A DNA stretch of 64,000 nt from Chitinivibrionales bacterium. Lineage in GTDB: Bacteria; Fibrobacterota; Chitinivibrionia; Chitinivibrionales; WJKA01. A program made the position numbers and the translations under genes. How positions within the stretch are numbered: the first letter of the stretch is position 1; each line of letters starts with the position of its first letter. Of the stretch, positions 6,399 to 33,425 are shown in pieces. The stretch covers positions 62,001-126,000 of the forward strand of contig WJLZ01000086.1 in assembly GCA_014728215.1 (NCBI GenBank), in the 5' to 3' direction. The notes under the pieces are model-generated. The model worked only from the letters and a program-made list of their open reading frames with translations. It did no database searches and was not told the origin of the DNA.

Positions 6399-8321
6399 CT
6401 ATACCTCCTCACGTTTCTCTGCTGCGGGGATGGTAAAATAAAAGCAACTCCCCTTTCCTTCGGTGCTTTCAACCCCTATTTTCCCACCATGAGCTTCAAC
6501 GATGCCTTTCACAATGGCGAGTCCAAGGCCGGTGCCTTTAATCTTCCGGACATTTGCCCCACGCTTGAATTTATCAAAAATATTTTTCTGAAATTTTGCC
6601 GGTACTCCCATACCATTATCGGCGACGGTACATCGCCAAAGACCATTCTCCCGTTCCATACCGATTTGAATACGAGAATCCGAATTATTGCCGGTATAAT
6701 TAATTGCATTTGCAATCAGATTCATGAATACTTTCGTGAGTCCTTCCTGGTCCGCGTATACTTTTGCATCAGGAATTGCCACTTCTAAATCGATTTTTTT
6801 CTGCTTAAGCTGATATTTATAATTTTGCGCGATTGTTTCGACCAGCTCTTTTATATTTATTTGGTCATAATTCAATTTTTGTTTACCCGAGTCAATTCGT
6901 GCGCAATCCAGAAGGTCTTCGACAAGCTCCTGCATATAGACAAGCGCATTTTTTCCTATTGACATCAATTCATTGATGTCATTCCGGCCATCCCCGGTTT
7001 CATTCACCCCCCTTTCCATAAGGAAACAAACTGTTTGCAATGCCGAAAGCGGATTTTTGAGATCGTGGCTAATGATATGAGTGATTTCCATGATTTCTCT
7101 GTTTTTCTGTTCGAGTTTTTTCCTGACTTCCATCATATGCGTAACGTCACGCATTGCCCCATAGATTACCTCTTCACCATGCCAGGTCAGAGTTTGCGCC
7201 GATATCAGCACATGGATCCGGGTTCCATCCTTACGAATTCGTAGGCCCTCATGGTTTTCAATTTTCCCACCCTCCATGAGAATAGTGATCGCAGTTTTCT
7301 GTTTTTCCCGATCTTCCAGTGCGCACAAATCTTCGGGCGACATCAAGAGAAGTTCTTCTTCCGTATACCCGAAAATTTTGCACATGGCAGGATTTACCGC
7401 AATAAATCTGCCGGTTACCGGACTCAGCAGTTGAAGGGCTTCACTTGAGAACTCGAATCCCCGCCTGAAATTTTCTTCCGATTCTCTGATTGTCTGTTCA
7501 GCTTTTCGGCGGCGGTCAAGCTCCCTCGTGAGTTTCATACGAAGATCATGCAAATATCCGACCATTACAGCGACAAAAATAAGCGAAAGAGTTCCAGGGA
7601 ATCCGTGAGGGGTGAAAAGAATATTCCACTGCGGTTCATTACTTAAATAGAAAAGAGCGGTATTGCATACAATGCCTCCCAGACCGAAAAGAACTCCGGC
7701 CTTCAAACCCCATAACCAGGCTGCTATTGAAACAGGCACACCGATCAGGGGAGAAAATCCTTTCCCGATTGTTTTTTCGAGAAATAGATACAAGGCAATA
7801 TAGAGGAAAAAACTGAGTACGACAATAACTATTGCCGGTATTTCATTTGTAAGTCGCTTTGAACCGCCGGATTGTTTTTGAATCCAGCCGAGAGCCTCCT
7901 CCTCGGAAGAAAGAAGTTTTACCGGAAAGGCAGGGCGGTTAAACGTGGTAAAGAAATTGCCTATAATTCGGCTGAGCGGACTATCGACAATAAGGGCACA
8001 GGCGGATGTACCACGGGCCGCATCACTTCCCGATAAATATTCCCGCGCCTCCCGGGTTACCCATCCACTCTTTCGTACATCGACAATACATGGACGGGGT
8101 TTGCCTCTGGATGCCAGTAAAATCGCCGCAATCTCCTGTTGGGCCTCCGATAATGTCATCGAAACGTTCGGTTTTGTGACTATCTCACGAATAATACCAT
8201 CATTTCCAAGCCAGATTTTGCTTGTTGACGTTTCGTATATCTTGGTTTTCATAATCTTGCTGTTATCATTAGGTGTACCCTCCGCTGCAAATTGTGCAAG
8301 ATTGGGACTATATTCATACAA
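6399..8321 (-). CDS. Membrane-bound PAS sensor histidine kinase
   Basis: This is a 640-aa kinase. Residues 25-150 form an N-terminal soluble domain with a STAS/DUF7793-like pattern (CIVDVRKSGWVTREAREYL ... ACALIVDSP). Four hydrophobic segments follow (about 160-182, 190-210, 211-228, 242-258). A PAS domain lies at 285-400, HisKA has phosphoacceptor His419 (ISHDLKNPLSAL), and HATPase carries NAINYTG, DNGMGVP and GTGLGLAIVKGI. There is no receiver domain, so the partner regulator is elsewhere. The start is uncertain: Met24 (8252) would begin exactly at the N-terminal domain. It lies 13 bases downstream of the FapA gene in the same direction, so co-transcription is likely. Confidence 0.88.
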   Translation of the reverse strand: MYEYSPNLAQFAAEGTPNDNSKIMKTKIYETSTSKIWLGNDGIIREIVTKPNVSMTLSEAQQEIAAILLASRGKPRPCIVDVRKSGWVTREAREYLSGSDAARGTSACALIVDSPLSRIIGNFFTTFNRPAFPVKLLSSEEEALGWIQKQSGGSKRLTNEIPAIVIVVLSFFLYIALYLFLEKTIGKGFSPLIGVPVSIAAWLWGLKAGVLFGLGGIVCNTALFYLSNEPQWNILFTPHGFPGTLSLIFVAVMVGYLHDLRMKLTRELDRRRKAEQTIRESEENFRRGFEFSSEALQLLSPVTGRFIAVNPAMCKIFGYTEEELLLMSPEDLCALEDREKQKTAITILMEGGKIENHEGLRIRKDGTRIHVLISAQTLTWHGEEVIYGAMRDVTHMMEVRKKLEQKNREIMEITHIISHDLKNPLSALQTVCFLMERGVNETGDGRNDINELMSIGKNALVYMQELVEDLLDCARIDSGKQKLNYDQINIKELVETIAQNYKYQLKQKKIDLEVAIPDAKVYADQEGLTKVFMNLIANAINYTGNNSDSRIQIGMERENGLWRCTVADNGMGVPAKFQKNIFDKFKRGANVRKIKGTGLGLAIVKGIVEAHGGKIGVESTEGKGSCFYFTIPAAEKREEV

Positions 8322-10233: not shown

Positions 10234-11310
<1,077 letters not shown>

Positions 11311-11769
11311 CTATTCTTCTTTAACAACAAAAAGGACCGGATTACCTTCAGCCTGCAGCCAGACCGTGTCTTTGCTGTTAAGGTCTTCACCCAGCGATTC
11401 ATCCGGCAGCCTTTCGGGAATACCCAGATCAAATATGGGATCTTCACCATACAGCGCAGTTATAAAATTTCCAACAACCATATTGAGAATCTCTTTCATG
11501 GCATCTTTACCCTTATCTTCGGCATCATCATCATTTTCATCAATGCCAAGCATATTGGCGGCGGCATAGCGGGCAAATGAATCATCAGCCCACATACAAA
11601 GCGACCCCGACCTTTCACCCGTAAAGGATAGTGAAAATCCTGTTGCATTCCACCGTTCCAGTTCCGACATCTCATTCCCATCCAAACGATCGGTGAAAAT
11701 AAATGCAGCATCTTCAAGAATACGGGCTATAACCTGCGAGGCTACTTCATTATTATTCAATTCACTCAT
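11311..11769 (-). CDS. CheX-like chemotaxis phosphatase-fold protein
   Basis: This 152-aa acidic protein has the CheC/CheX/FliY fold pattern: a strand pair (GFSLSFTGERSGSLCMW), a helix, then KEILNMVVGNFITALYG. The last contains one ExxN signature (Glu93, Asn96), as in CheX, where Glu and Asn attack the aspartyl-phosphate of CheY. A poly-Asp stretch at 80-84 is unusual. Its start overlaps the end of the upstream receiver gene by 8 bases, so the two are probably translationally coupled and may work as a pair. It is a paralogue in fold of the canonical CheX at 14360-14815. Dephosphorylating activity is inferred from the motif only. Confidence 0.72.
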   Translation of the reverse strand: MSELNNNEVASQVIARILEDAAFIFTDRLDGNEMSELERWNATGFSLSFTGERSGSLCMWADDSFARYAAANMLGIDENDDDAEDKGKDAMKEILNMVVGNFITALYGEDPIFDLGIPERLPDESLGEDLNSKDTVWLQAEGNPVLFVVKEE

Positions 11770-12148
11770 CCCATCCTCCCAGTGTTTTAATAATCACATC
11801 CCGGATTGCTTCAGGAGTAAAGGGTTTCCGCAAATATCCCTTAATACCTTTTTTCTCGAGTTCGGTAATGCGCGTTTTGCTCCCTTCAGTCGAGACAATT
11901 ACAACAGGAATTTCCTTGAGTTCGGCGTGAGCATTCATGGCGTCGATAAGCTCGATACCGCTCATCCGAGGCATATGAATATCGGTAAACACGATATCCA
12001 CCCACCGCTCCTTCATTTGTTCCAGAGCCTGTATACCGTTATCGGCATGGAGTACCGAATCGACCGGCAGTTTGGTCATTGCCAGTGCCCGTTCCAGTAC
12101 TGCCCGGATAGTCTCCGAATCATCAACAATCATAATAGTATAGGCCAT
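11762..12148 (-). CDS. Single-domain response regulator (CheY-like)
   Basis: This is a 128-aa stand-alone receiver. The acidic pair is in IMIVDDSE, the phosphoacceptor is Asp56 (IVFTDIHMPRMSG), a Thr/Ser switch lies in VIVSTEG, and the lysine is in GYLRKPFTPE. It has no output domain, so it signals by protein-protein contact or serves as a phosphate sink. Its stop overlaps the start of the CheX-like gene, which hints that the latter dephosphorylates it. It is separated from the HDOD gene upstream by about 95 bases that contain a repeat element. Confidence 0.88.
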   Translation of the reverse strand: MAYTIMIVDDSETIRAVLERALAMTKLPVDSVLHADNGIQALEQMKERWVDIVFTDIHMPRMSGIELIDAMNAHAELKEIPVVIVSTEGSKTRITELEKKGIKGYLRKPFTPEAIRDVIIKTLGGWDE

Positions 12149-12168
12149 AGGGCCGCTCCCTGGTTAAA

Positions 12169-12200
12169 TTCGAAATTCGAAATTTTATGGTAATCATATT
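12169..12200. repeat. Dispersed repeat family 3 (CGAAAT), copy 1
   Basis: This intergenic segment has tandem CGAAATT units followed by TATGGTAATCATATT. The gap between cheA and cheW (22592-22650) carries the same two-part arrangement. Both copies are inside the chemotaxis cluster and lie before a gene start. Confidence 0.5.
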
Positions 12201-12243
12201 ATAATCTCAAAACTCGAAAAAGTGAATTTGGTTGTTGGATTCC

Positions 12244-13083
12244 TCATCCATACATTTCCATTATATTGTCCAATTTTTCTTTTGTCGATGCACATAATTT
12301 TTCAAAGTTTTCACGTGACAACCCAAGCCGTTCCTGAATGGAACTGTCGACAGCCAGCTGCATACCTTCGTATCCGATACCTTCTCCGATTGACCGGGCA
12401 ACCATATTTGCTATCCGGACACAGTCGGTTTCAAGAGCAACATTTTCATCGAGGCTATGGTGATACTTTACTGCGGTGATGATTATTTCGGGCAATTTCC
12501 ATTGTGCCATAATCTCGGCGCCGATATCTGCATGGGTGAAGCCAAAGACAAAATATTCAGCTTCGGCACAGGTGCATGACTCATTAACAACTCTTTGCCA
12601 TACCCGGTCCATCATCGCTTGCCCGGCGTTTCTCCCCAACACCAGCTTTCCGATATCATGAAGCAGCGCCGCGGTAAATGCAACCCCTTCGATACTTATT
12701 TCAACAAAGCTGTTCATAATTTCGGCGGCGGTTGCTGAAGCGACACTATGTCGCCAGAGTTCATCTTCCGAATATCCATAGGAAGGCACCGGCTTGCTGA
12801 TACTGTTTTTGACATTCCGTGCGACAATCTGTTCGAGAATACGGGCGCCGCCAAGGCGGATTACGGCATTTTTGATTGAAGACACCGGTGTGTTCGACGA
12901 GGAAAATACCGAATTCGCAAATTTAAGCACATCAATGGTAAGCGCCTGGTCGTATTCAATTACCGTAACGATATCATCGACCGAGCTCTTTGCAGACGCA
13001 ACCACTTCCGCCAACTTACATGCCGACCGGGGCAATGGATGCAGTTCTTCAGATTTTTTGATTATTTCCTGAATGCCGATCAT
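12244..13083 (-). CDS. HDOD domain protein
   Basis: This 279-aa soluble protein is an HDOD domain, a metal-dependent phosphohydrolase-related fold often found as a signalling output without proven catalysis. The domain covers residues 15-215 (LPRSACKLAEVVASAKSSVDDIVTVIEYDQALTIDVLKFANS, read in parts). The HD-like segment LLHDIGKLVLG is retained, and HSLDE and a late helical tail follow. The gene starts with ATG overlapping the TGA of cheD (ATGA at 13080-13083), which argues for coupled translation. HDOD proteins in chemotaxis and motility clusters often affect flagellar or c-di-GMP-related outputs. The role here is inferred from context. Confidence 0.85.
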   Translation of the reverse strand: MIGIQEIIKKSEELHPLPRSACKLAEVVASAKSSVDDIVTVIEYDQALTIDVLKFANSVFSSSNTPVSSIKNAVIRLGGARILEQIVARNVKNSISKPVPSYGYSEDELWRHSVASATAAEIMNSFVEISIEGVAFTAALLHDIGKLVLGRNAGQAMMDRVWQRVVNESCTCAEAEYFVFGFTHADIGAEIMAQWKLPEIIITAVKYHHSLDENVALETDCVRIANMVARSIGEGIGYEGMQLAVDSSIQERLGLSRENFEKLCASTKEKLDNIMEMYG

Positions 13084-13556
13084 AGATCACCTCTTTGTCC
13101 ATGACTGGTGAACCAGCTCTCTCCGGTATCCACATCCAGATACAATGTCCGTGGTATATGGCCAGCGACATGTTCTGCAGCGATCATTACGCCGTTTCTC
13201 CAGAACATTTTACGGGCAATAACAATGTTTCGATTACCGATATCAAAGAAATCTTTTTTTTCGAAAACCTGGGCGCCTCCTGCCATTACCACCCGAAGAT
13301 TTTCCTTTTTTGCTCCAAGCTTATAGGCCTCCCTGAACAAAAGAGGAATACCCGTGTCACCGAACATAAATGGATTCTTCTGAGCTTTGGGTGGATCGAC
13401 CTTTGACAGCGGCAGCATGTAATGCAGAATGCCGCCAACTCCGGCAACCGGGTCGTGAATGGCGATGCCGATACAGGAACCGAGGGCATGGGTGACAATC
13501 ATGTCACCATTTCCCCTGCACGCTTTCATGTCTGATACGCCGACAATATATTTCAT
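13080..13556 (-). CDS. cheD: Chemoreceptor glutamine deamidase CheD
   Basis: CheD deamidates receptor glutamines and, in CheC/CheX-containing systems, couples adaptation to CheY-P. The 158-aa protein has the family catalytic set: Thr22 and Cys28 (THALGSCIGIAIHD) and His45 (GILHYMLP), close in number to Thermotoga CheD. Length is normal. It lies 21 bases downstream of cheY and overlaps the HDOD gene by 4 bases. Co-occurrence with CheX (rather than CheZ) matches the Thermotoga/Bacillus/spirochaete type of adaptation circuit. Confidence 0.95.
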   Translation of the reverse strand: MKYIVGVSDMKACRGNGDMIVTHALGSCIGIAIHDPVAGVGGILHYMLPLSKVDPPKAQKNPFMFGDTGIPLLFREAYKLGAKKENLRVVMAGGAQVFEKKDFFDIGNRNIVIARKMFWRNGVMIAAEHVAGHIPRTLYLDVDTGESWFTSHGQRGDL

Positions 13557-13577
13557 TTTTGTGTATCTGCTGTTTTT

Positions 13578-13934
13578 CTATATTCCGAGTTTCTCTTTCA
13601 AAGCTTCAGGCGTAAACGGCTTAACAATGTAATTGTTTGCGCCGGTTTTCAGCGCTTCGACAACCTTTGGTTTTTCAGATTCCGATGTGCACATGATTAT
13701 TTTTACATCCTTGTACGCAGCATTTTCTCTGGCTTTTTTCAAAAATGTGATACCATCCATGACGGGCATATTCCAGTCGAGTAAGATAGTATCAACGGGC
13801 ATACTGCTTTCCAGCTTGTCTAACGCCTGTTGTCCGTCACCAGCTTCAACAACATCTGTTATCCCCATGCCGCTAAGCTGAGTTTTCTGTATCTTCCGCA
13901 TTATTGCCGAATCGTCAACCAATAAAATCTTCAT
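13578..13934 (-). CDS. cheY: Chemotaxis response regulator CheY
   Basis: Of the single receivers in the cluster, this 118-aa protein is the most CheY-like. The acidic pair is in LVDDSA, phosphoacceptor Asp53 sits in the DWNMP motif typical of CheY, the switch region is IIMCTSES and the lysine is in YIVKPF. CheY-P binds the flagellar switch to change rotation. It lies between a stand-alone receiver (19 bases upstream) and cheD (21 bases downstream). The choice of this receiver as the true CheY is inference from the motif and its place next to cheD. Confidence 0.9.
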   Translation of the reverse strand: MKILLVDDSAIMRKIQKTQLSGMGITDVVEAGDGQQALDKLESSMPVDTILLDWNMPVMDGITFLKKARENAAYKDVKIIMCTSESEKPKVVEALKTGANNYIVKPFTPEALKEKLGI

Positions 13935-13953
13935 AAAAAGCCTCCTGATTTTT

Positions 13954-14337
13954 TCAGCTGTTTTTGTTGTATTCTTTCATTTTCCTTGTCTTCCTGGCAT
14001 TATTAACCAGTACAGCAACATCATTGACCATAAAAGGCTTTTGCAGGAAACCAACGACACCAATGGATGCAAAAAATTGTGCAACAACATCTTCCCTTCG
14101 CAGACCGCTTATGGCAATTACCGGAATTTTAGATTGACGAAGTCTAAGAATGAATTCAACTCCCTCGATTTCAGGCATCAAAATATCCGAAATTATAAGG
14201 TCGATTTTGTTGACACCAAGCAAATCAATGGCTTGCTTGCCGTTTTCGGCTACAAAAACATGATAGCCGTTTTCCTGAAGCATTTCTCTAAGCATCTGTC
14301 TTATCTCTTCATGATCATCTACTATCAGTATATTCAT
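13954..14337 (-). CDS. Single-domain response regulator
   Basis: This is a 127-aa stand-alone receiver with the acidic pair in LIVDDHE, phosphoacceptor Asp51 (LIISDILMPEIEG), a Ser switch in VIAISG and the lysine in FLQKPF. After the receiver only a short charged tail (NARKTRKMKEYNKNS) remains, so there is no output domain. It lies 22 bases after cheX and 19 before cheY. It resembles receivers of multi-component phosphorelays (MPEIEG type) more than the flagellar-switch CheY, and could accept phosphate from one of the two hybrid kinases upstream. Confidence 0.88.
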   Translation of the reverse strand: MNILIVDDHEEIRQMLREMLQENGYHVFVAENGKQAIDLLGVNKIDLIISDILMPEIEGVEFILRLRQSKIPVIAISGLRREDVVAQFFASIGVVGFLQKPFMVNDVAVLVNNARKTRKMKEYNKNS

Positions 14338-14359
14338 ACGTTACATCCTTACCTCTGTC

Positions 14360-14815
14360 TCACGTTTTCAAAGAAACTTCCATAACGAATTCACCCGAAG
14401 GCGATTGAAAGGGCACAATAAGGGTGGGAACGCCCTTCTGTGTCGACAGTGTATGACTTTTGCCGATTATTACATTGGGCAATGAAATCATGAGATTGAG
14501 TCCGTCTAAATGCTGTTTTGCATTACCGGCAATTATGTTGGCGATTTCACCGATCCCGTCGGTTAAGTCGGGACCGACGATCTTAATCGTCATCCCGGTC
14601 ATCAGGGAAACGAATTTAAGAGCAAGAACCTTGGGAAAACTTATGGCAATCGACCCCTGGGCATCGCCGGACAATCCAATAATACCGGATATATCATGGG
14701 TGGGAAAGGGTTCGGTTTTGGCCCGCGGAGCCCCTGGTTTGACCTCGGTATTAATCATGGTTTTAAATGTTTCGATTGTTGAGGTAATAAAAGGGTTTAC
14801 ATAAGAAACATCCAT
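14360..14815 (-). CDS. cheX: Chemotaxis phosphatase CheX
   Basis: CheX dephosphorylates CheY-P. This 151-aa protein matches the family along its length: N-terminal helix (VNPFITSTIETFKTM), strand IIGLSGDAQGSIAISFP, and the catalytic helix DGIGEIANIIAGNAK, which supplies the Glu90/Asn93 pair. The C-terminal strands PTLIVPF and EFVMEVSLK complete the fold. CheX dimers in Borrelia and Thermotoga act in place of CheZ, and no CheZ is seen here. It lies 46 bases downstream of one receiver gene and 22 upstream of the next. The ribosome binding site AGGAGG just before the ATG supports the start. Confidence 0.88.
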   Translation of the reverse strand: MDVSYVNPFITSTIETFKTMINTEVKPGAPRAKTEPFPTHDISGIIGLSGDAQGSIAISFPKVLALKFVSLMTGMTIKIVGPDLTDGIGEIANIIAGNAKQHLDGLNLMISLPNVIIGKSHTLSTQKGVPTLIVPFQSPSGEFVMEVSLKT

Positions 14816-14861
14816 CGGACCTCCTTGTTTTTAGAGCTTTATTCTGTTGAATATCATGAGC

Positions 14862-15239
14862 TTATTGTTTACCAAATAAATCTTCAACCGTATGCAGTAA
14901 CTTTTTTCTGTCAAAAGGTTTCTGAATTATTGCATCGGCGCCTAATTTGCCAGCCGATTGCAGATAGATGTCGGATGATGCTGCTCCTGAAACCGCGATT
15001 ATTTTTACCTCAGGGTATTCCGCCCTGAGCGATACAATTGTTTCAATTCCTTCCTTTTCGGGCATAATCAGATCGGTGATCATCATATCGATATGGAAGG
15101 TTTTGAAAAAATTGAGCGCCTGTAGACCGTCTTGCGCTTCGATAACCGTATATCCTTCATTCTCCAATACCAAGCGAATATATTCACGGATCGTCTCTTC
15201 ATCATCGACAACAAGTACCACTTTTTTATCCTGCTGCAT
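14862..15239 (-). CDS. Single-domain response regulator
   Basis: This is a 125-aa receiver with no output domain. The acidic pair is in VVDDEE, the phosphoacceptor is Asp56 (MMITDLIMPEKEG), a Ser switch lies in IIAVSGAA and the lysine is in IIQKPFDRK. The sequence type (MPEKEG, VSGA) is that of receivers coupled to hybrid kinases. It follows the REC-REC-PAS-kinase-REC gene by 15 bases and is thus the best candidate for its downstream partner. Confidence 0.88.
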   Translation of the reverse strand: MQQDKKVVLVVDDEETIREYIRLVLENEGYTVIEAQDGLQALNFFKTFHIDMMITDLIMPEKEGIETIVSLRAEYPEVKIIAVSGAASSDIYLQSAGKLGADAIIQKPFDRKKLLHTVEDLFGKQ

Positions 15240-21076: not shown

Positions 21077-21880
21077 CTATGCTTTTACATAAACCGATGG
21101 CTTGACACATTTAAATCCACTGAGCATACCCGTCAAGCTCTCGGCATGGCCAACCATGAGATACCCACCGGGTTTCAGAAGGCGATAGAATTCGTTTAAA
21201 AGCCGTTTCCGCACCTCGTTATCGAAATAAATCATGACATTTCTGCAGAATATCGTATCCATAGGTCCTTGCATGGGAAAGGGTACAACCGACAGATTGA
21301 GTCTTTTGAAAAGGATCATTTTCTTTAACTGGTCCTTTACTCTATACACTGCCGTAGTGTTTCTTCCTTGTTTAACAAAATACCGTTCCCGTAAAAAGGG
21401 AGAAACATTTTCAATTTTACGGGCCGAATACTCACCAGCCATACTTGCAGCAAGAATTCGTGTCGAAATATCGGTTGCCAGAATCCGCATGTCGGACGTC
21501 CGGCCATCCAGGGTCTGGAGAAGAGTCATTGCGATCGAATAGGGTTCCTCTCCCGAAGAACAGCCTGCAGACCAGTACCTGAATCGCCGCTGCCCCTGTT
21601 CGAGCCATTGAGACATCGCTTCGCTTAAAAAATCAAAATGTTCGTTTTCTCTGAAAAAGTGCGTGACATTGGTTGAAACAGCATCCAGCAGTTGAACAAT
21701 TTCTTCACCGTTTTTATCATTCTGGACATACTGCAGATACTCTTCATGTTCTTCCATACCAAGTGCCCGCATACGTTTGGCAATCCGGGCACTCACCAGG
21801 GCTTCTTTTTTTTCATTAAGAGAGATACCGGCGGCGGCATAGATGATATCCCGGAATTGAATGAATATCTTTTTATCCAT
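21077..21880 (-). CDS. cheR: Chemotaxis protein methyltransferase CheR
   Basis: CheR transfers methyl groups from S-adenosylmethionine to receptor glutamates. The 267-aa protein has the helical CheR N-terminal domain (1-75) and the SAM-binding domain with FRYWSAGCSSGEEPYSIAM (motif I), the aspartate-ending strand DMRILATDIS, and IFCRNVMIYFD (motif IV). Length is normal. I prefer ATG 21880; a GTG two codons upstream is in the same frame. The gene follows cheW after a 168-base gap with an 11-bp hairpin, and precedes the hybrid kinase by 12 bases. Confidence 0.95.
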   Translation of the reverse strand: MDKKIFIQFRDIIYAAAGISLNEKKEALVSARIAKRMRALGMEEHEEYLQYVQNDKNGEEIVQLLDAVSTNVTHFFRENEHFDFLSEAMSQWLEQGQRRFRYWSAGCSSGEEPYSIAMTLLQTLDGRTSDMRILATDISTRILAASMAGEYSARKIENVSPFLRERYFVKQGRNTTAVYRVKDQLKKMILFKRLNLSVVPFPMQGPMDTIFCRNVMIYFDNEVRKRLLNEFYRLLKPGGYLMVGHAESLTGMLSGFKCVKPSVYVKA

Positions 21881-21917
21881 CAGCACAACTCATTGTAAAT
21901 GGTATTAAAACGACAAC

Positions 21918-22048: not shown

Positions 22049-22564
22049 TTACATATTCGACAACATATCAACTTCATTTCCCGAAAGTACCCGCTGTATA
22101 TCGAGTAACATCTTTACATTTTCACCGAGCTTTCCTATGCCCATGATAAAATCGGTATCGATACTTGATCCGAAAGTGGGCGCTTCCTCAATTTCATCGG
22201 GCTTAATATCCAGAACTTCCTTAACTTCATCGATAATAATACCCATAGTCACCGGATTCCCCTTGGACTCGATCTGTACGACAATTATACAGGTCTTATC
22301 GGTATCTTCCTGAGACGCCATGCAGAATTTGGCCCGCAACTCGATCACGGGAATGACTTTTCCCCGCAAATTGATCACGCCACGCACGAATTCCGGTGCC
22401 TTCGGCACTTTGGTTATCTTCTGCATCTGGATGATCTCCTGTACCTTGAGAATCTCAAGACCGTACTCTTCGTCACCCAGTATAAAGGTCAGATATTTGC
22501 CGGACAGTTTCTTTCCGATATCCGATACTTCGGCCGCTGTATCAGTATGAGTGTTTTGTGACAT
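22049..22564 (-). CDS. cheW: Chemotaxis coupling protein CheW
   Basis: CheW links CheA to chemoreceptors in the signalling array. The 171-aa protein is a single CheW domain: KYLTFILGDEEYGLEILKVQEI, then TKVPKAPEFVRGVINLRGKVIPVIELR (the conserved core), ending in a family-typical helix (KLGENVKMLLDIQRVL). The start at 22564 is set by AAGGAGG eight bases before the ATG. An upstream in-frame GTG would sit directly on the Shine-Dalgarno. It lies downstream of cheA, separated by a gap holding CGAAAT-type repeats. Confidence 0.95.
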   Translation of the reverse strand: MSQNTHTDTAAEVSDIGKKLSGKYLTFILGDEEYGLEILKVQEIIQMQKITKVPKAPEFVRGVINLRGKVIPVIELRAKFCMASQEDTDKTCIIVVQIESKGNPVTMGIIIDEVKEVLDIKPDEIEEAPTFGSSIDTDFIMGIGKLGENVKMLLDIQRVLSGNEVDMLSNM

Positions 22565-22591
22565 GAAACACACCTCCTTGGGGGATTAAAA

Positions 22592-22688: not shown

Positions 22689-25457
22689 TTATTCCCCTGC
22701 CAGTTTTACTATTTCTCCGATATCGAGGATGAGCGAAACATTGCCGTCACTCATGATAGCGCCGCCGGCAACACCCGGATGATCGCCCAGACCGTGGCCC
22801 AGGCTTTTAATTACTACCTGTTGCTGTCCAAGAATCTCATCGACCAGAAGAGCGATCCGTTTACCGATCATATCTTCCACAATAATGGCAATACCTTCTC
22901 TGGGGTCGGTTTTTGTCCCATTGGTTCCGAAAATCCCGGACAATCGTACAAAGTTGAGCAACTCACCCCGCACCTTCATCATTTCACCTCTGCCCATGAT
23001 CGATTCAATCTGTTTCTCCTGAGGCTTGAGTGATTCAATAATCGATAAGGTCGGTACGATATAGGATTCCTCCTTAAGCCGCACAATCATACCATCGATA
23101 ATCGCCAGAGTCAGCGGCAACCTGATCGAAAAGGTCGTTCCTTTTCCCGGTTCTGATTGTATTTCGACGGACCCCCGTAGGGACTGTATATTTCTCTTGA
23201 CAACATCCATGCCGACCCCTCTTCCGGAGACATCGGTAATTTTCTTCGCCGTCGAAAAACCGGGGGCAAAAATGAACTGGTAGATCTCCTGGTCGGATAA
23301 CTTGTCATCCTCTCTGGCCAGCCCCTGTTTTACCGCTTTTTTTAATATCGAATCCCTGTCCAGCCCACGGCCGTCATCGGAAATCTCGATATAAATGCTT
23401 CCCGCCTTATGGAAAGCACTGAGTTTGACAATACCGACAGGATCTTTTCCGGCGGCAATACGGCCTTCCTTCGAATCTTCAATACCATGGTCCACCGAGT
23501 TGCGAATCATATGAATAAGGGGGTCACCGATATTCTCGACAACAGACTTGTCAAGCTCAGTCTCTTCGCCGTCAGTAACAAAATTAACTTCCTTCCCGGA
23601 TTTTTTCGAAAGATCCCGTACCAGCCTGGCCATCTTCTGGAATGTGGATTTAATCGATACCATTCGAAGGGCCATTGAAAGTTCCTGTACCTGGCGCATG
23701 ATCAAGCTTGTTTGAGCGATCTTTTTCTCCAGTTTCTGATTTCGTGCTTCCATAACAGCCGGATCTGCAGCAATCATCGATTGAGCAATAACCGCTTCAC
23801 CGATAGCATCGACAAGCTGGTCCAGTCTGTCAACAGGGACCCGTATAGTTTCTTCCACAACCGGTTTCCGGGCCGCATTCTGGCTCGCAAGTGCGCCCGC
23901 AACTTGCCGGCTTGACGTTTTTTTGTTTTCAATAAGTATTTCACCGATTTTTCTGCCATCACCTTTTTTCTGAGCCTCCAACGCTCCTTCAATTTCTTCT
24001 GCCGAAATAGTTCCTTTCTCTACAAGAATTTCTCCCACCTTTTTATCGGGTGATGACGCCGGTGCTATATTCGGTTTTTCACCGAGCGAACGGGGTGAGG
24101 CCAACCTTTCCATTATGCTCCGGTAGGATTCAGGTAACGAATAGGCTTCACCACTCAGGGTATTTTCAACAATAGCGATAAACTCTTTTAAACAATCCAT
24201 CGATTCGAGCAGGAGATCTATATGAACCGGCTCAAGTATGAGATTTCCCTTGCGAGCCATATCCATTACATTTTCCATGCTGTGAGCAAGTTCACTCACC
24301 TCTTTGAGCGCTAAAAAGCCCGCAACCCCTTTAACCGTATGGCAGGAACGGAAAATACTGTTTAGATGTTCGGGATTCGCCGGATCATTCTCAAGCTCTA
24401 AAAGCAGCGATTCCCCACTATTGATATGATCCCGTGATTCGGTGACAAAGTCTTTAATAAGCGAGGGATCAACAGCTACACATGCTTGTTCAGGCTGTGC
24501 ATTCGATTGAGAAGAAGGTAAGGTTGTTGATGGCTGTTCTTCACATGAGGCGGTAGCTTGTTGATCCCCCGTGGCGTCAGTGGGGACACTTTCCGTGTTA
24601 TCACGGCCGCAGTTGTTTCCAAATACAGCAGTGGTATCTTTTTCGCTTATATCGGCAACCGATCCTGATGTCAAATCACTTATTCGTGAAGCAAGCAGAT
24701 CCTTGAGTTTGAAAAGGTTATCCCCTGTAAATGATCCGTTTTCAAAAGCCTCTTCAACATCATGAATAAGTTTCGAATAATTTCTCAGATCCAAAACACC
24801 AAATTCACCTTTCCAGGTATGGAGGACTCTTTTGATGGCGCCTTTGGCCTGAGGAGCTCCTTTCTCATACTCCAGAATATAGGCTTCAAAATCTTCCACA
24901 ACCGGCATCTGTTGTGCCGCAAACCTGGTGGCAAGCTCCTTGAGATCCTCGGGGAAATTAATTGTCCCACCCTGTCCATCACCGGATTTCATACTTACGG
25001 CCCTGTCGCTTTCAACATCCTCATCAAAGGAATCGATAAGCTTTTTAGCTGCGTCATTATCCTGTTTCTTTTGCTGTTTGCCGGTTTTCTTTTTCCCTTT
25101 GTCGCTATTGTCTTCCCCGCTGTTATCATCCGGATCAGCTACTGTTTTGTTCCCCTCTTTTTTAACTTCACCGTTGTTATCCATGGCAAAGAGGGCTTTG
25201 GACATCTTATCGACACATTCCCCCAACTTTGAACATCCGGTATCAAAAGCTGTCTCATCCATGATAATATTTTCGGCCAGCTTTGCAGCGCGGTCGGCCA
25301 TACTGCAAAATGCCTTCGGCAAATTGTCCGTCCCCGCTAACTGTTCCATCGCTCCCATGATCTCCGTAAGGGAGGTAAGATCGGATTTATCTAAAAGGGG
25401 CAGTTGTGATGCAACCCGGTTCAAGGTTTTTTCAATAGAATCATTTTTTTGAGTCAT
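22689..25457 (-). CDS. cheA: Chemotaxis histidine kinase CheA, unusual N-terminal architecture
   Basis: CheA autophosphorylates on an Hpt histidine and passes phosphate to CheY and CheB. This 922-aa form is longer than usual. It has a helical N-terminus and a Lys/Asp-rich linker (100-150). A first Hpt-like domain carries His213 (VLHTWKGEFG). A second, canonical Hpt carries His373 (FRSCHTVKGVAGF). Two MshEN/GspE-N-like repeats follow at 473-528 (KVGEILVEKGTIS ... KIGEILIENKKTS). Next come the dimerisation domain, the HATPase (MIRNSVDHGIED, GRGVGMDVVK) and the CheW-like domain. I see no obvious P2 CheY-binding domain. The start at 25457 is supported by GGGGGAG upstream; Met at 25487 overlapping the previous stop is the alternative. 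Confidence 0.93.
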   Translation of the reverse strand: MTQKNDSIEKTLNRVASQLPLLDKSDLTSLTEIMGAMEQLAGTDNLPKAFCSMADRAAKLAENIIMDETAFDTGCSKLGECVDKMSKALFAMDNNGEVKKEGNKTVADPDDNSGEDNSDKGKKKTGKQQKKQDNDAAKKLIDSFDEDVESDRAVSMKSGDGQGGTINFPEDLKELATRFAAQQMPVVEDFEAYILEYEKGAPQAKGAIKRVLHTWKGEFGVLDLRNYSKLIHDVEEAFENGSFTGDNLFKLKDLLASRISDLTSGSVADISEKDTTAVFGNNCGRDNTESVPTDATGDQQATASCEEQPSTTLPSSQSNAQPEQACVAVDPSLIKDFVTESRDHINSGESLLLELENDPANPEHLNSIFRSCHTVKGVAGFLALKEVSELAHSMENVMDMARKGNLILEPVHIDLLLESMDCLKEFIAIVENTLSGEAYSLPESYRSIMERLASPRSLGEKPNIAPASSPDKKVGEILVEKGTISAEEIEGALEAQKKGDGRKIGEILIENKKTSSRQVAGALASQNAARKPVVEETIRVPVDRLDQLVDAIGEAVIAQSMIAADPAVMEARNQKLEKKIAQTSLIMRQVQELSMALRMVSIKSTFQKMARLVRDLSKKSGKEVNFVTDGEETELDKSVVENIGDPLIHMIRNSVDHGIEDSKEGRIAAGKDPVGIVKLSAFHKAGSIYIEISDDGRGLDRDSILKKAVKQGLAREDDKLSDQEIYQFIFAPGFSTAKKITDVSGRGVGMDVVKRNIQSLRGSVEIQSEPGKGTTFSIRLPLTLAIIDGMIVRLKEESYIVPTLSIIESLKPQEKQIESIMGRGEMMKVRGELLNFVRLSGIFGTNGTKTDPREGIAIIVEDMIGKRIALLVDEILGQQQVVIKSLGHGLGDHPGVAGGAIMSDGNVSLILDIGEIVKLAGE

Positions 25458-25483: not shown

Positions 25484-25888
25484 TCATTTCGTTCCCGATA
25501 CATTTTCATTGGAAACGGCAGTAGTTTTATCTTTTTCCAAAACTTTATACACAACAGCTTTCAGGTCGGGAAGGTTTATTGGTTTCACAAAAAAGAAGAC
25601 CGGCGACAATTGGCGTGCGTTGCGTTCAGTCTCTTCGGTTATGTCGCCGGTCATCAGAATAGAGGGGGTATCCCATCCTCGAGCACGCAATTCGGGAATT
25701 AACCGTTCACATGATTTTCCCGGAAGATGATAATTTCCGATAAAAAGATCAAAATTTTCCCTTTGCATCACTTCAAAAGCATCATTACCGTTATCCACGA
25801 TAGAAACATTACAACCGATATCCCCTAGATATTTTTTCAGCGCCCTGAGGCAAAAATGATCATCATCCGCCAGCAATACCCTATACAT
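25484..25888 (-). CDS. Pseudo-receiver domain protein (Asn at phosphoacceptor position)
   Basis: This 134-aa single receiver lies directly before cheA. The N-terminal acidic cluster is intact (LLADDDH), as are the switch threonine (ILMTGD) and the lysine (FFVKPINLP). The phosphoacceptor position, however, is Asn52 (LFIGNYHLPG), read as AAT in the sequence. It should not be phosphorylated in the normal way and may work as a constitutive or binding-only partner of CheA or other array proteins. It lies between a 67-aa gene (32 bases upstream) and cheA (27 bases downstream of its stop to the preferred cheA start). Confidence 0.85.
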   Translation of the reverse strand: MYRVLLADDDHFCLRALKKYLGDIGCNVSIVDNGNDAFEVMQRENFDLFIGNYHLPGKSCERLIPELRARGWDTPSILMTGDITEETERNARQLSPVFFFVKPINLPDLKAVVYKVLEKDKTTAVSNENVSGTK

Positions 25889-30860: not shown

Positions 30861-30890
30861 TTGAAATATCCCCTCAATCATCGGTATAAT
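30861..30890 (+). promoter_or_regulatory. Sigma-70 promoter for the FecR/CsgG-like genes
   Basis: TTGAAA at 30861-30866 and TATAAT at 30885-30890 are 18 bases apart, about 30 bases upstream of the ATG at 30921. This is the best sigma-70 match noticed in the window and implies strong constitutive expression of the exported FecR-like proteins. Confidence 0.6.
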
Positions 30891-30920
30891 ATAGAAATAT
30901 ATACCTGTAAAGGAGGGATA

Positions 30921-32144
30921 ATGCAAAAAACCGATTTTTCGGGCATTTCAGTCTGTCTTTTCCTGCTCTTTGCATCATTTGCATCACCGGCATCTTCAGT
31001 AATGCTCGATTCGCTTACCGGCAAAGCGCAGGTACAGCGGGCGGGAAAAGGCAAATGGTTTCCCGTTAAAGAAGGCACCGAGCTGCATAACAACGATATC
31101 ATACGAACAGCCGCACACTCAACTGCAAAGCTGAAGTGGGGAAATGAGGATCATGTCTATTTAAAGGAACAAACCCAACTCCTCGTAAACCTTCATGAAA
31201 ATAAAAAACCATCATTGATATCACAGCATATAACGGTCTTTTACGGCGCTGCGTTTTTTATCATTAGAGAAGTCCTGCCTGCACTCGGAAACAAACGCTA
31301 TGATACTAAAGTCTACTCACCTACTTCGGTAGTTGCTATTCGGGGCACCTCCTTCTGTGTAGCCGCCGATAAAGAGAGTGGGAAAACGGCGCTTATAGTA
31401 ATCAACGGAACGGTCCTTACCCGCAATATTCTTCGAAATGTTTCGGTGTTTGTCCGTTCAGGATACCAAACCTCAATTGCAATCAATACCGACCCCATAA
31501 AACCATCCCCGGTACTCAAAAAGGACATCAAAGAATTAAAAACGTGGGTTCCCCTTGCCGTTCTCACCGAAGAAATGAAAAAGCAGAAAGAAAAATCACA
31601 GCGAACAAAAGCAATTATCTCAGGAAAACTCGAGCAGAAAACCGCAGTAGTACCCTTTGCCAATATTTCCACTTACCGGGGCTCCTGGGATATCGGCTCC
31701 CTTTTTGCCCAATTTATGGCATCAAGGATCGATAAAGAAACCCCGGGGATGAAAGCTGTCGTAACCACTCTTTCTGCAGAGAACCCCGTGGAGATCGGCA
31801 TGAAAGAAAAGGCTCACTATGTTGTTACCGGCGAAATCACCGTATTTGATATCGTTCAGCATGCCAAAGTTACTCCAAAGGCCGATGATTATAATGAGTA
31901 TTCCGATGCAATTATCGAAATCCGGTGCAGTCTCATCGATGTTGCGGGTGAAAAGGTCAAGTATGACAATACAATTAGCGTAAAAAGCCGGGGTGACAAT
32001 GTTCCCCACAACACCTGGAAAGAAATCGGTAAACTGAAATGTGACATGAATGATTCAACTTTTACATCATCATTGATAGGAACATCGATCAAACGAGCCA
32101 TTGATCAGGTTTCGGGCGAAATTGCACGGTATTTACGCGACTGA
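30921..32144 (+). CDS. Exported FecR-domain / CsgG-like fusion protein (copy 1)
   Basis: This is a 407-aa secreted protein. The start at 30921 follows AGGAGG six to seven bases upstream, and a signal peptide (ISVCLFLLFASFASPAS) occupies the first 26 residues. Residues 30-180 form a FecR/DUF4880-like beta domain: SLTGKAQVQRAGKGKW, LHNNDIIRTAAHSTAKL, then SPTSVVAIRGTSFCV. After a basic helical linker, residues 245-405 resemble CsgG/LpoB-type lipoprotein domains (TAVVPFANIS, HYVVTGEITVFDIVQ, IEIRCSLIDVAGEKV, IGTSIKRAIDQVSGEI). A paralogue follows 54 bases downstream. No lipobox cysteine is apparent, so it is probably periplasmic. A role in envelope scaffolding or export is inference. Confidence 0.75.
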   Translation: MQKTDFSGISVCLFLLFASFASPASSVMLDSLTGKAQVQRAGKGKWFPVKEGTELHNNDIIRTAAHSTAKLKWGNEDHVYLKEQTQLLVNLHENKKPSLISQHITVFYGAAFFIIREVLPALGNKRYDTKVYSPTSVVAIRGTSFCVAADKESGKTALIVINGTVLTRNILRNVSVFVRSGYQTSIAINTDPIKPSPVLKKDIKELKTWVPLAVLTEEMKKQKEKSQRTKAIISGKLEQKTAVVPFANISTYRGSWDIGSLFAQFMASRIDKETPGMKAVVTTLSAENPVEIGMKEKAHYVVTGEITVFDIVQHAKVTPKADDYNEYSDAIIEIRCSLIDVAGEKVKYDNTISVKSRGDNVPHNTWKEIGKLKCDMNDSTFTSSLIGTSIKRAIDQVSGEIARYLRD

Positions 32145-32198
32145 ACACCATGGTATTAAGTAACCTGTTCAAGAAGGCTCAGAATAGAGGAGACGAAT

Positions 32199-33425
32199 AT
32201 GACTATCGGTTCGGGAAGTTATGTTAAATCACTTTTGGGTTTGCTGCTTTGCATTCATATATGTTTCGCAGAGGAATATGTGACACTTAAAAGTCTGACC
32301 GGACAGGCTGAAGTCAGGAAGGCGGGACAGGAAAACTGGAGACTGGTCGGCCAGGGCGCAAATCTTCATAACAACGATATATTCAGAGTTGCAAAGAATT
32401 CAAAGGCATGTCTTACCTGGAGTGATGAAAGTGAAATATATCTTAAAGAAAATTCCCAGATACTCATAAATCTCCATTCCAACCCCGGTGATAATTCGGT
32501 TGTTCAACATTTTACGGTATTTTTTGGAGCAGCATTCTTTCTTTTTAAATGTGCCCTTCCAAAATTAGTCCCCGACAACCACTCAAAGGTATACACACCA
32601 ACTGCAGTAATTGCAACCAGGGGTACTTCTTATGAAGTTAATGTTTCAAAGAATAACGGCACATCATCAATTAAAGTGCTTAACGGCACTGTTCTGGTGA
32701 AAAATATACTGAAAAATTCGTCCCTGTTTTTGAAGGCGGCATATAAGACTGTCGTTGAAATAAACACCGATCCGATTGTGCCCAGTGCCATTCTTGAAGA
32801 TGATATTGCTCTTTTAAAAAAATGGGTCCCCTCTGAGGTAATCCGCAGGGAAATGAAATTCCAGCTCTCACGGGCCAAACGGGACCATGAAATTATTACC
32901 GGCAAACTGATCAATAAGATGGTTATCGTACCCCTCCGGAACAATTCCGACTATGAAGGTGAGTGGCAACTACCAAAGGAACTGGCAAAATGTATTTCGG
33001 CAAAGCTATCCGAATCGATCAAGGGGCTGAGTGCGAATGTCACCGGTAATTATAAAGCCGACCCGCTAAGCCTGGGGACCGATCATGAAGCCCGTTTTAT
33101 CCTGCGGGGTTCGATTGAAAAATTTGATATTTCACAACATGCAAAAGTCTCCCCTTCAGCCGATGAATACCGTGAATACAATCTTGCGGAAATACGGCTT
33201 TATCTGCAGCTTATCGATGCTGAAACTGAAAAAATGGTGATTGACAACTACTATTCGGGTGAAGTTTCGGGCAAACACGACAGCCATAATTCATGGGAAA
33301 CGATACGAAAATACCCCTGCAACCTCAAAGACCCTCATTTCAGCAAGTCTATTTTAGGAAGGGCCCTGTTTCAGGCCATCGAAGGGGCATCTCAGGAGAT
33401 AACGCGTTACGTGAAGGGAGAGTAA
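32199..33425 (+). CDS. Exported FecR-domain / CsgG-like fusion protein (copy 2)
   Basis: This is a 408-aa paralogue of the preceding gene, aligning along its whole length. It has a signal peptide (LLGLLLCIHICFA, cleavage before EEY). The FecR-like domain has SLTGQAEVRKAGQENW, LHNNDIFRVAKNSKAC and TPTAVIATRGTSYEV. The C-terminal CsgG-like domain has MVIVPLRNNSD, ARFILRGSIEKFDISQHAK, LAEIRLYLQLIDAETEKMV and ILGRALFQAIEGASQEI. GAGGAGAC upstream of ATG 32199 is a good ribosome binding site. It ends about 130 bases before convergent efp. The pair arose by tandem duplication and was kept despite divergence, suggesting separate or heteromeric roles. Confidence 0.75.
   Translation: MTIGSGSYVKSLLGLLLCIHICFAEEYVTLKSLTGQAEVRKAGQENWRLVGQGANLHNNDIFRVAKNSKACLTWSDESEIYLKENSQILINLHSNPGDNSVVQHFTVFFGAAFFLFKCALPKLVPDNHSKVYTPTAVIATRGTSYEVNVSKNNGTSSIKVLNGTVLVKNILKNSSLFLKAAYKTVVEINTDPIVPSAILEDDIALLKKWVPSEVIRREMKFQLSRAKRDHEIITGKLINKMVIVPLRNNSDYEGEWQLPKELAKCISAKLSESIKGLSANVTGNYKADPLSLGTDHEARFILRGSIEKFDISQHAKVSPSADEYREYNLAEIRLYLQLIDAETEKMVIDNYYSGEVSGKHDSHNSWETIRKYPCNLKDPHFSKSILGRALFQAIEGASQEITRYVKGE

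Follow-up and report, generated by a model that had tools for sequence, protein, structure and literature searches.

A Chitinivibrionales CheA with an MshEN_N-type, putatively c-di-GMP-binding domain between P1 and P3

To our knowledge, the links between c-di-GMP and chemotaxis known so far run via receptors, methylation, or the motor. A cheA gene in the window (the whole stretch of DNA analysed, 64,000 nucleotides from a Chitinivibrionales bacterium) raises the question of whether the activity of the kinase itself could be tied to this second messenger. Our preferred reading, to which we give a probability of about 0.65, is that this flagellar-cluster CheA binds one c-di-GMP in a 54-residue MshEN_N domain on the tether between its Hpt1/Hpt2 domains and the kinase core, and that binding alters the flow of phosphate.

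Gene neighbourhood and domain layout

The chemotaxis genes of the window that bear on this CheA are as follows.

10234..15239, minus strand: CheB, CheX, receiver, HDOD, CheD, receiver, CheX, and receiver (Pfam)
21077..21886, minus strand: CheR (Pfam)
22049..22573, minus strand: CheW, the downstream neighbour of CheA (Pfam)
22689..25457, minus strand: CheA (P0001), 922 residues, with ATG at 25457 and the stop codon at 22689-22691
25484..25888, minus strand: stand-alone receiver directly upstream of CheA (Pfam PF00072)

Also included in the cluster are large histidine kinases, FapA, and an NtrC-type regulator, and FliG is encoded some 19 kb ahead of the window on this contig. An in-frame ATG at 25487, ten codons upstream, offers an alternative start that would give a CheA of 932 residues; since the receiver gene upstream ends in a stop codon that overlaps this ATG (25484-25487), the true start may be 25487. 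Elsewhere in the window, the histidine kinase at 6399-8321, which has an N-terminal DUF7793 (88.7 bits) and a PAS domain, sits beside FapA and the chemotaxis cluster, and two similar adjoining ORFs at 30861-33425 (427 and 408 residues) are apparent tandem paralogues with what, by our impression of the sequence, is a FecR-like N-terminal region. The genome encodes enzymes for both the synthesis and the breakdown of c-di-GMP, with 15 GGDEF matches (13 over the cut-off) and 15 matches of the HD-GYP type; EAL domains were absent from the genome at E 0.001. It further holds four receptor signalling domains, none of them on the CheA contig, and a second CheA-like gene on a contig without a match to NF053729, the c-di-GMP-binding domain profile considered below.

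Within CheA, the following features were delineated.

25167..25451, minus strand: N-terminal four-helix bundle, residues 3-97 (AlphaFold2), without an H-box or a Pfam match
24672..24950, minus strand: Hpt1 (P1-like), residues 170-262, with phospho-acceptor His213 at 24819-24821
24156..24467, minus strand: Hpt2 (P1), residues 331-434, with phospho-acceptor His373 at 24339-24341 (Pfam PF01627)
23880..24041, minus strand: MshEN_N-type domain, residues 473-526 (NF053729, model, sequence and structure searches)
23970-24041, minus strand: MshEN motif I, residues 473-496
23880-23951, minus strand: MshEN motif II, residues 503-526, the spacer being residues 497-502
23664..23834, minus strand: P3 dimerisation hairpin, residues 542-598 (Pfam PF02895, AlphaFold2)
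23109..23657, minus strand: P4 ATPase domain, residues 601-783 (Pfam PF02518, structure comparison)
22704..23093, minus strand: P5 CheW-like domain, residues 789-918 (Pfam PF01584)

The kinase core is readily recognised, with P3 scoring 40.1 bits against a cut-off of 23, P4 65.1 bits against 26.4 (and Z 26 to CheA P4 structures), and P5 77.6 bits against 23.5. The Pfam extents are 333-421 for Hpt, 536-596 for H-kinase_dim, 645-783 for HATPase_c, and 789-918 for CheW, and a second, weaker Hpt stretch is matched at a lax threshold only. A full-length AlphaFold2 model built from a 49-row alignment has an overall pLDDT of 82.6, with folded units at residues 3-97, about 170-262, 331-434, and 474-529, and at P3, P4, and P5; residues 96-161 and 281-325 (pLDDT below 50) are predicted to be disordered linkers.

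The original prediction, which was made from the sequence, placed two Hpt-like domains at His213 and His373, and both were recovered here. His213 lies in an HTWKG box and His373 in an HTVKG box, a profile comparison of Hpt1 with Hpt2 gave E 7.7e-20 (probability 99), and both are predicted helical bundles. H373, K376, and G377 are invariant across the 49 aligned rows, the H-box of Hpt1 is mostly H-T-x-K-G among those homologues having Hpt1, and Hpt2 superposes on P1 structures with a Z of about 20. The predicted lack of P2 is borne out as well, and a P2 hidden in this region was rejected, as no Pfam P2 match appeared even at E 10 and the stretch between the last Hpt2 helix (ending at residue 434) and the first MshEN motif (starting at residue 473) is only some 38 residues long. 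Among the 49 homologues, the P2 model was matched by two, and by none of the 20 that were scanned singly. A feature beyond the earlier prediction is the N-terminal bundle (residues 3-97), modelled with pLDDT block means of 92-97 over residues 11-90 and 74 over residues 1-10, and present, as judged by length, in 47 of the 49 homologues. Its similarity to Hpt is weak by hhalign (with Hpt2, the probability is 37, and with Hpt1, it is 5), and the full-length structure comparison, being dominated by P4, hardly probes an Hpt origin.

The MshEN_N domain between P1 and P3

Residues 473-526 of CheA are a four-helix MshEN_N domain lying between P1 and P3. The sequence-based prediction had pointed to two KxGEIL...Q units here, like those at the N-termini of type II/IV secretion ATPases, and these are found as K473-Q496 and K503-Q526. 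The profile search that had been proposed bore this out. The NCBIfam model NF053729 (c-di-GMP-binding domain, MshE-related; c-di-GMP_motif) matched residues 474-526 with positions 2-53 of its 53, scoring 48.3 bits where the curated cut-off is 38. Pfam T2SSE_N gave no match in CheA up to E 10 (weak matches are dropped by the HMMER filters), and residues 421-536 are without any Pfam match up to E 10. T2SSE_N was likewise absent among the families listed for the 49 homologue rows. DUF4388 was matched in nine of these; in the two cases located, the match overlaps the MshEN region and falls below the cut-off, and we took these to be cross-hits. A phmmer search with residues 461-536 retrieved PilF (E 4e-16) and Vibrio cholerae MshE (PDB ID: 5htl, E 9e-6), the latter being found at 1e-10 by the CheA-domain profile.

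The structure models agree with this assignment. In the full-length model, helices span residues 474-480, 486-497, 504-510, and 516-529, the block means of pLDDT range from 77 to 91 across residues 471-530, and the domain is flanked by loops of pLDDT below 50 at 462-468 and 533-536. Modelled alone (residues 462-545, 80-row alignment), it again forms four helices, with a mean pLDDT of 74 and block means of 76-85 over residues 11-70 of that model. Foremost among the Foldseek hits, the top nine rows are all c-di-GMP complexes of MshE (5htl) and PilF GSPII-B, with rmsd values of 1.0-1.5 over 57-58 columns and probabilities of 1.00, at E-values of only 0.008-0.1; for 5htl itself, the probability was 1.00 and the rmsd 1.0 over 57 columns. 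Lower ranks were taken by the non-binders PilF GSPII-A (9g1w, 13th) and XpsE (2d28, 18th of 19). VIA-align gave Z scores of 9.2-9.9 for the binders (9.6-9.8 for PilF GSPII-B, with rmsd 1.4-1.8 over 57-58 residues), a Z score alone not being decisive for helical bundles.

That a disordered linker of low complexity should resemble MshEN_N by chance is very improbable. Such an explanation would fit with the two long linkers of the same CheA (96-161 and 281-325), which are predicted to be disordered, but not with a profile match above its cut-off, nor with a confidently predicted fold. Moreover, dN to the nearest relative is 0.25 in the MshEN domain vs 0.59-0.63 in these two linkers (only dN was compared per domain, most segments having a saturated or undefined dS), and the region is duplicated in tandem as a unit in other CheAs. 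A disordered linker at this place, which the prediction had named as its refuting outcome, was not seen in the structure prediction, and this reading is refuted by NF053729, the Foldseek matches, and the full-length model.

Distribution, tandem copies, and ligand-contact residues

At E 1e-30, 69 of 200 related genomes were matched, and a first sample of the 30 best CheAs (our own and 29 loci) was inspected. Here, the MshEN domain was judged by eye to be kept in 24, absent from five (L017, L025, L026, L028, and L029), and decayed in one (L016). In a Chitinivibrionales CheA (L016 and L057), the decay has left unit 2 partly readable and unit 1 without most key residues. The co-occurrence of MshEN-CheA with GGDEF domains was set aside as support, since GGDEF is present in all 29 relatives tested, both the 23 with MshEN in the CheA examined and the six without, and is thus uninformative.

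For a wider view, a P3-pattern scan of a species-genome collection returned 470 stretches, 249 of which were confirmed, and the best 80 of these 249 were kept; the window and 79 of the 80 loci (L057 was left out) make up an 80-row alignment, all rows of which are matched by NF053729 (E <= 0.001). As labelled, these best 80 of 249 loci belong to Fibrobacterota, Hydrogenedentota, Zixibacteria, Planctomycetota, Desulfobacterota/Deltaproteobacteria, Gemmatimonadota, SAR324, Myxococcota, Omnitrophota, Muiribacteriota, Ignavibacteria, and Riflebacteria. One locus, L047, is labelled uncultured Acidobacteria, and its CheA groups inside Fibrobacterota, which points to transfer or mis-binning. Two tandem MshEN copies lie between Hpt and P3 in 20 of the 79 loci with an H-box, mostly Hydrogenedentota. 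In these, the domain follows the H-box histidine at a distance of 160-171 residues (416 for L104) vs 89-119 otherwise, and the gap contains two further motifs, which make up a second MshEN; no upstream motif was found in the other 59. The CheAs with tandem copies are the following.

L060, L062, L064, L070, L080, L085, L087, L088, L095, and L099
L100, L101, L104, L105, L106, L107, L111, L114, L119, and L120

On an unrooted tree of P3-P5 with 86 rows, the five that have no intact domain fall inside a clade dominated by Fibrobacterota and need at least three changes, two of them forced by well-supported branches; the tandem copies need at least seven. We read the absences as losses rather than gains, as far as an unrooted tree allows. 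Taken with tandem duplication, the absence from some relatives implies mobility, which argues for an independent module rather than a fixed linker. MshEN-CheA is widespread and has been little noticed.

With regard to the ligand site, Wang et al. (2016, PMC5013675) give as key c-di-GMP positions Arg9, Leu10, Gly11, Leu25, Leu29, and Gln32, and, in the second half-site, Arg38, Leu39, Gly40, Leu54, Leu58, and Gln61. At these positions, the window protein has K473, V474, G475, I489, L493, and Q496 in motif I and K503, I504, G505, V519, L523, and Q526 in motif II. Both glycines, both glutamines, and both last leucines are kept, with lysine replacing arginine twice and valine or isoleucine replacing leucine at four contact positions (10, 25, 39, and 54). 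Moreover, Lys512 stands at the usual turn glycine of motif II (glycine in 47 of the 80 rows), and the spacer has six residues vs five in VcMshE, its length being six or seven in 63 of the 80 CheAs. Elsewhere, such a lysine has been reported to favour binding, and isoleucine for leucine to cost little: PilF GSPII-B has a first-position lysine and a KD of about 6 nM, and changing this lysine to arginine weakens binding (PMC11731258), and two Leu to Ile changes in an engineered GSPII-A cost about 2.4-fold (PMC12002112). The latter work also reports a role in binding for the glutamines and for the glycine at the third position, and that a full consensus may still fail to bind where other features interfere (PMC12002112). 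Given these reports and the retention of the contact glycines and glutamines, a c-di-GMP site in the window CheA is plausible by sequence, though Lys512 and the six-residue spacer count against it.

Across the 80 CheAs, the mean entropy is 0.89 bits at the 12 contact positions vs 2.14 at the other 36 motif positions, a value reached as low by one in 20,000 random draws. Because similarity to this region played a part in the retrieval of the loci, conservation is inflated generally, though not selectively at the contacts. Some non-contact core positions (L478, L508, and G482) are equally conserved, so that both fold and ligand appear to constrain the domain. Both contact glycines are present in all 80 rows, Gln61 in 79, Gln32 in 66, and both glutamines in 65. 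Accordingly, part of the MshEN-CheA family may not bind, given the 14 rows without Gln32 and the one without Gln61. Six deltaproteobacterial CheAs (L069, L082, L083, L090, L091, and L093) lack Gln32 in motif I, leaving that half-site degenerate, and are candidate non-binding or altered relatives.

These same residues bear on a rather unlikely alternative, namely that the MshEN fold in CheA no longer binds a nucleotide and is a docking or spacer module that, for example, recruits receivers in place of P2. As a parallel, the N-terminal domain of XpsE, itself non-binding, mediates contacts between proteins in type II secretion. The location of MshEN in the place that P2 occupies in classical CheAs fits this alternative, as do the missing turn glycine in motif II and the rows without Gln32, and Wang et al. 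report that several MshEN domains have probably lost the ability to bind (PMC5013675). Opposing it are the retention of both ligand-touching glycines, accompanied in most rows by that of both glutamines, the poorer structural matches to the non-binders GSPII-A and XpsE than to binders, and, for the P2 part, a report that over half of CheAs have no P2 (PMC10782961), so that no substitute is needed. Improbable in our estimation is binding of a different cyclic dinucleotide, for instance 3',3'-cGAMP, which some bacteria make with GGDEF enzymes. VcMshEN does bind cGAMP, albeit far more weakly than c-di-GMP (PMC5013675), and the glycine that reads guanine through its backbone is retained here in each half-site. 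Binding of c-di-GMP remains our preferred reading.

Putative function and comparison with known systems

The conserved ligand-contact residues make it likelier that CheA activity may be tied to a second messenger, as originally predicted. Here, c-di-GMP would bind the MshEN bundle, which lies on the tether joining the phosphotransfer domains to the kinase dimer, probably with sub-micromolar to micromolar affinity, and binding would alter phosphate flow from P4 via Hpt2/Hpt1 to the receivers. High c-di-GMP would most likely lower this flow, presumably because the P1 tether is docked or restrained. Transmission of a twist to P3 by a rigid helix is unlikely, because both linkers of the domain are predicted to be loose and that on the P3 side varies from 8 to 29 residues among the CheA rows. 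For the whole multi-phylum class (Fibrobacterota, Hydrogenedentota, Zixibacteria, Desulfobacterota, and others), we consider the balance even on whether these CheAs are c-di-GMP receptors in which phosphotransfer is gated by MshEN on the tether from P1 to P3; the tandem modules of some lineages could then grade the response or cooperate. If this is true, a single polypeptide would join chemotaxis to the choice between motile and sessile life, with no need for PilZ adaptors or for changes in receptor methylation, and a c-di-GMP-sensing kinase would be a shorter link than the receptor, methylation, or motor routes. Swimming control may, in that event, be wired directly to c-di-GMP.

As a whole, the prediction of an MshEN-CheA is supported, with two corrections: Pfam-A has no hit in this region, and the fusion had already been named, in one phrase, by Wang et al. 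(2016, PMC5013675), with the same domain pairing as in the window. In the sections of that paper covered here, the CheA fusion is given neither a mechanism nor a phylum range, and tandem copies and losses are absent. A survey of CheA domain architectures from 2023 lists P2, CheY-like, and CheC/CheX among the auxiliary domains and describes the P1-P3 region of P2-less CheAs as unstructured in AlphaFold models, its main text containing none of the terms T2SSE, c-di-GMP, MshE, GspE, GSPII, "cyclic", or "second messenger" (PMC10782961). This omission is perhaps because Pfam models miss the domain, which NCBIfam NF053729 detects. We found no experimental study of an MshEN-CheA in the open-licence literature; the pairing is apparently unstudied, and the wide phylum range and the tandem form are apparently without an earlier description in the literature covered.

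Compared with VcMshE (PDB ID: 5htl), the window domain shares the two 24-residue motifs, the four-helix bundle, Gly11/Gly40 and Gln32/Gln61, and 40% identity over 57 columns. It differs in having lysine for Arg9 and Arg38, valine or isoleucine for Leu10, 25, 39, and 54, and the longer spacer, and, whereas MshE is an assembly ATPase, it lacks the MshEN_C subdomain and is fused to CheA. With Thermus thermophilus PilF GSPII-B (PDB ID: 8pdk), a nanomolar c-di-GMP binder by report (PMC11731258), it shares the fold and the lysine that opens motif I; motif II opens with leucine in PilF and with lysine in CheA, and PilF is a type IV pilus ATPase. Classical five-domain CheAs (Escherichia coli and Thermotoga maritima) have P1, P3, P4, and P5 in common with the window CheA, which in contrast has two Hpt domains, an extra N-terminal bundle, and MshEN instead of P2. 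Finally, MapZ and the PilZ-bearing chemoreceptor Cbp1 also bring c-di-GMP input to chemotaxis, but are reported to do so at the receptors or their methylation, whereas here the c-di-GMP domain would sit in the kinase.
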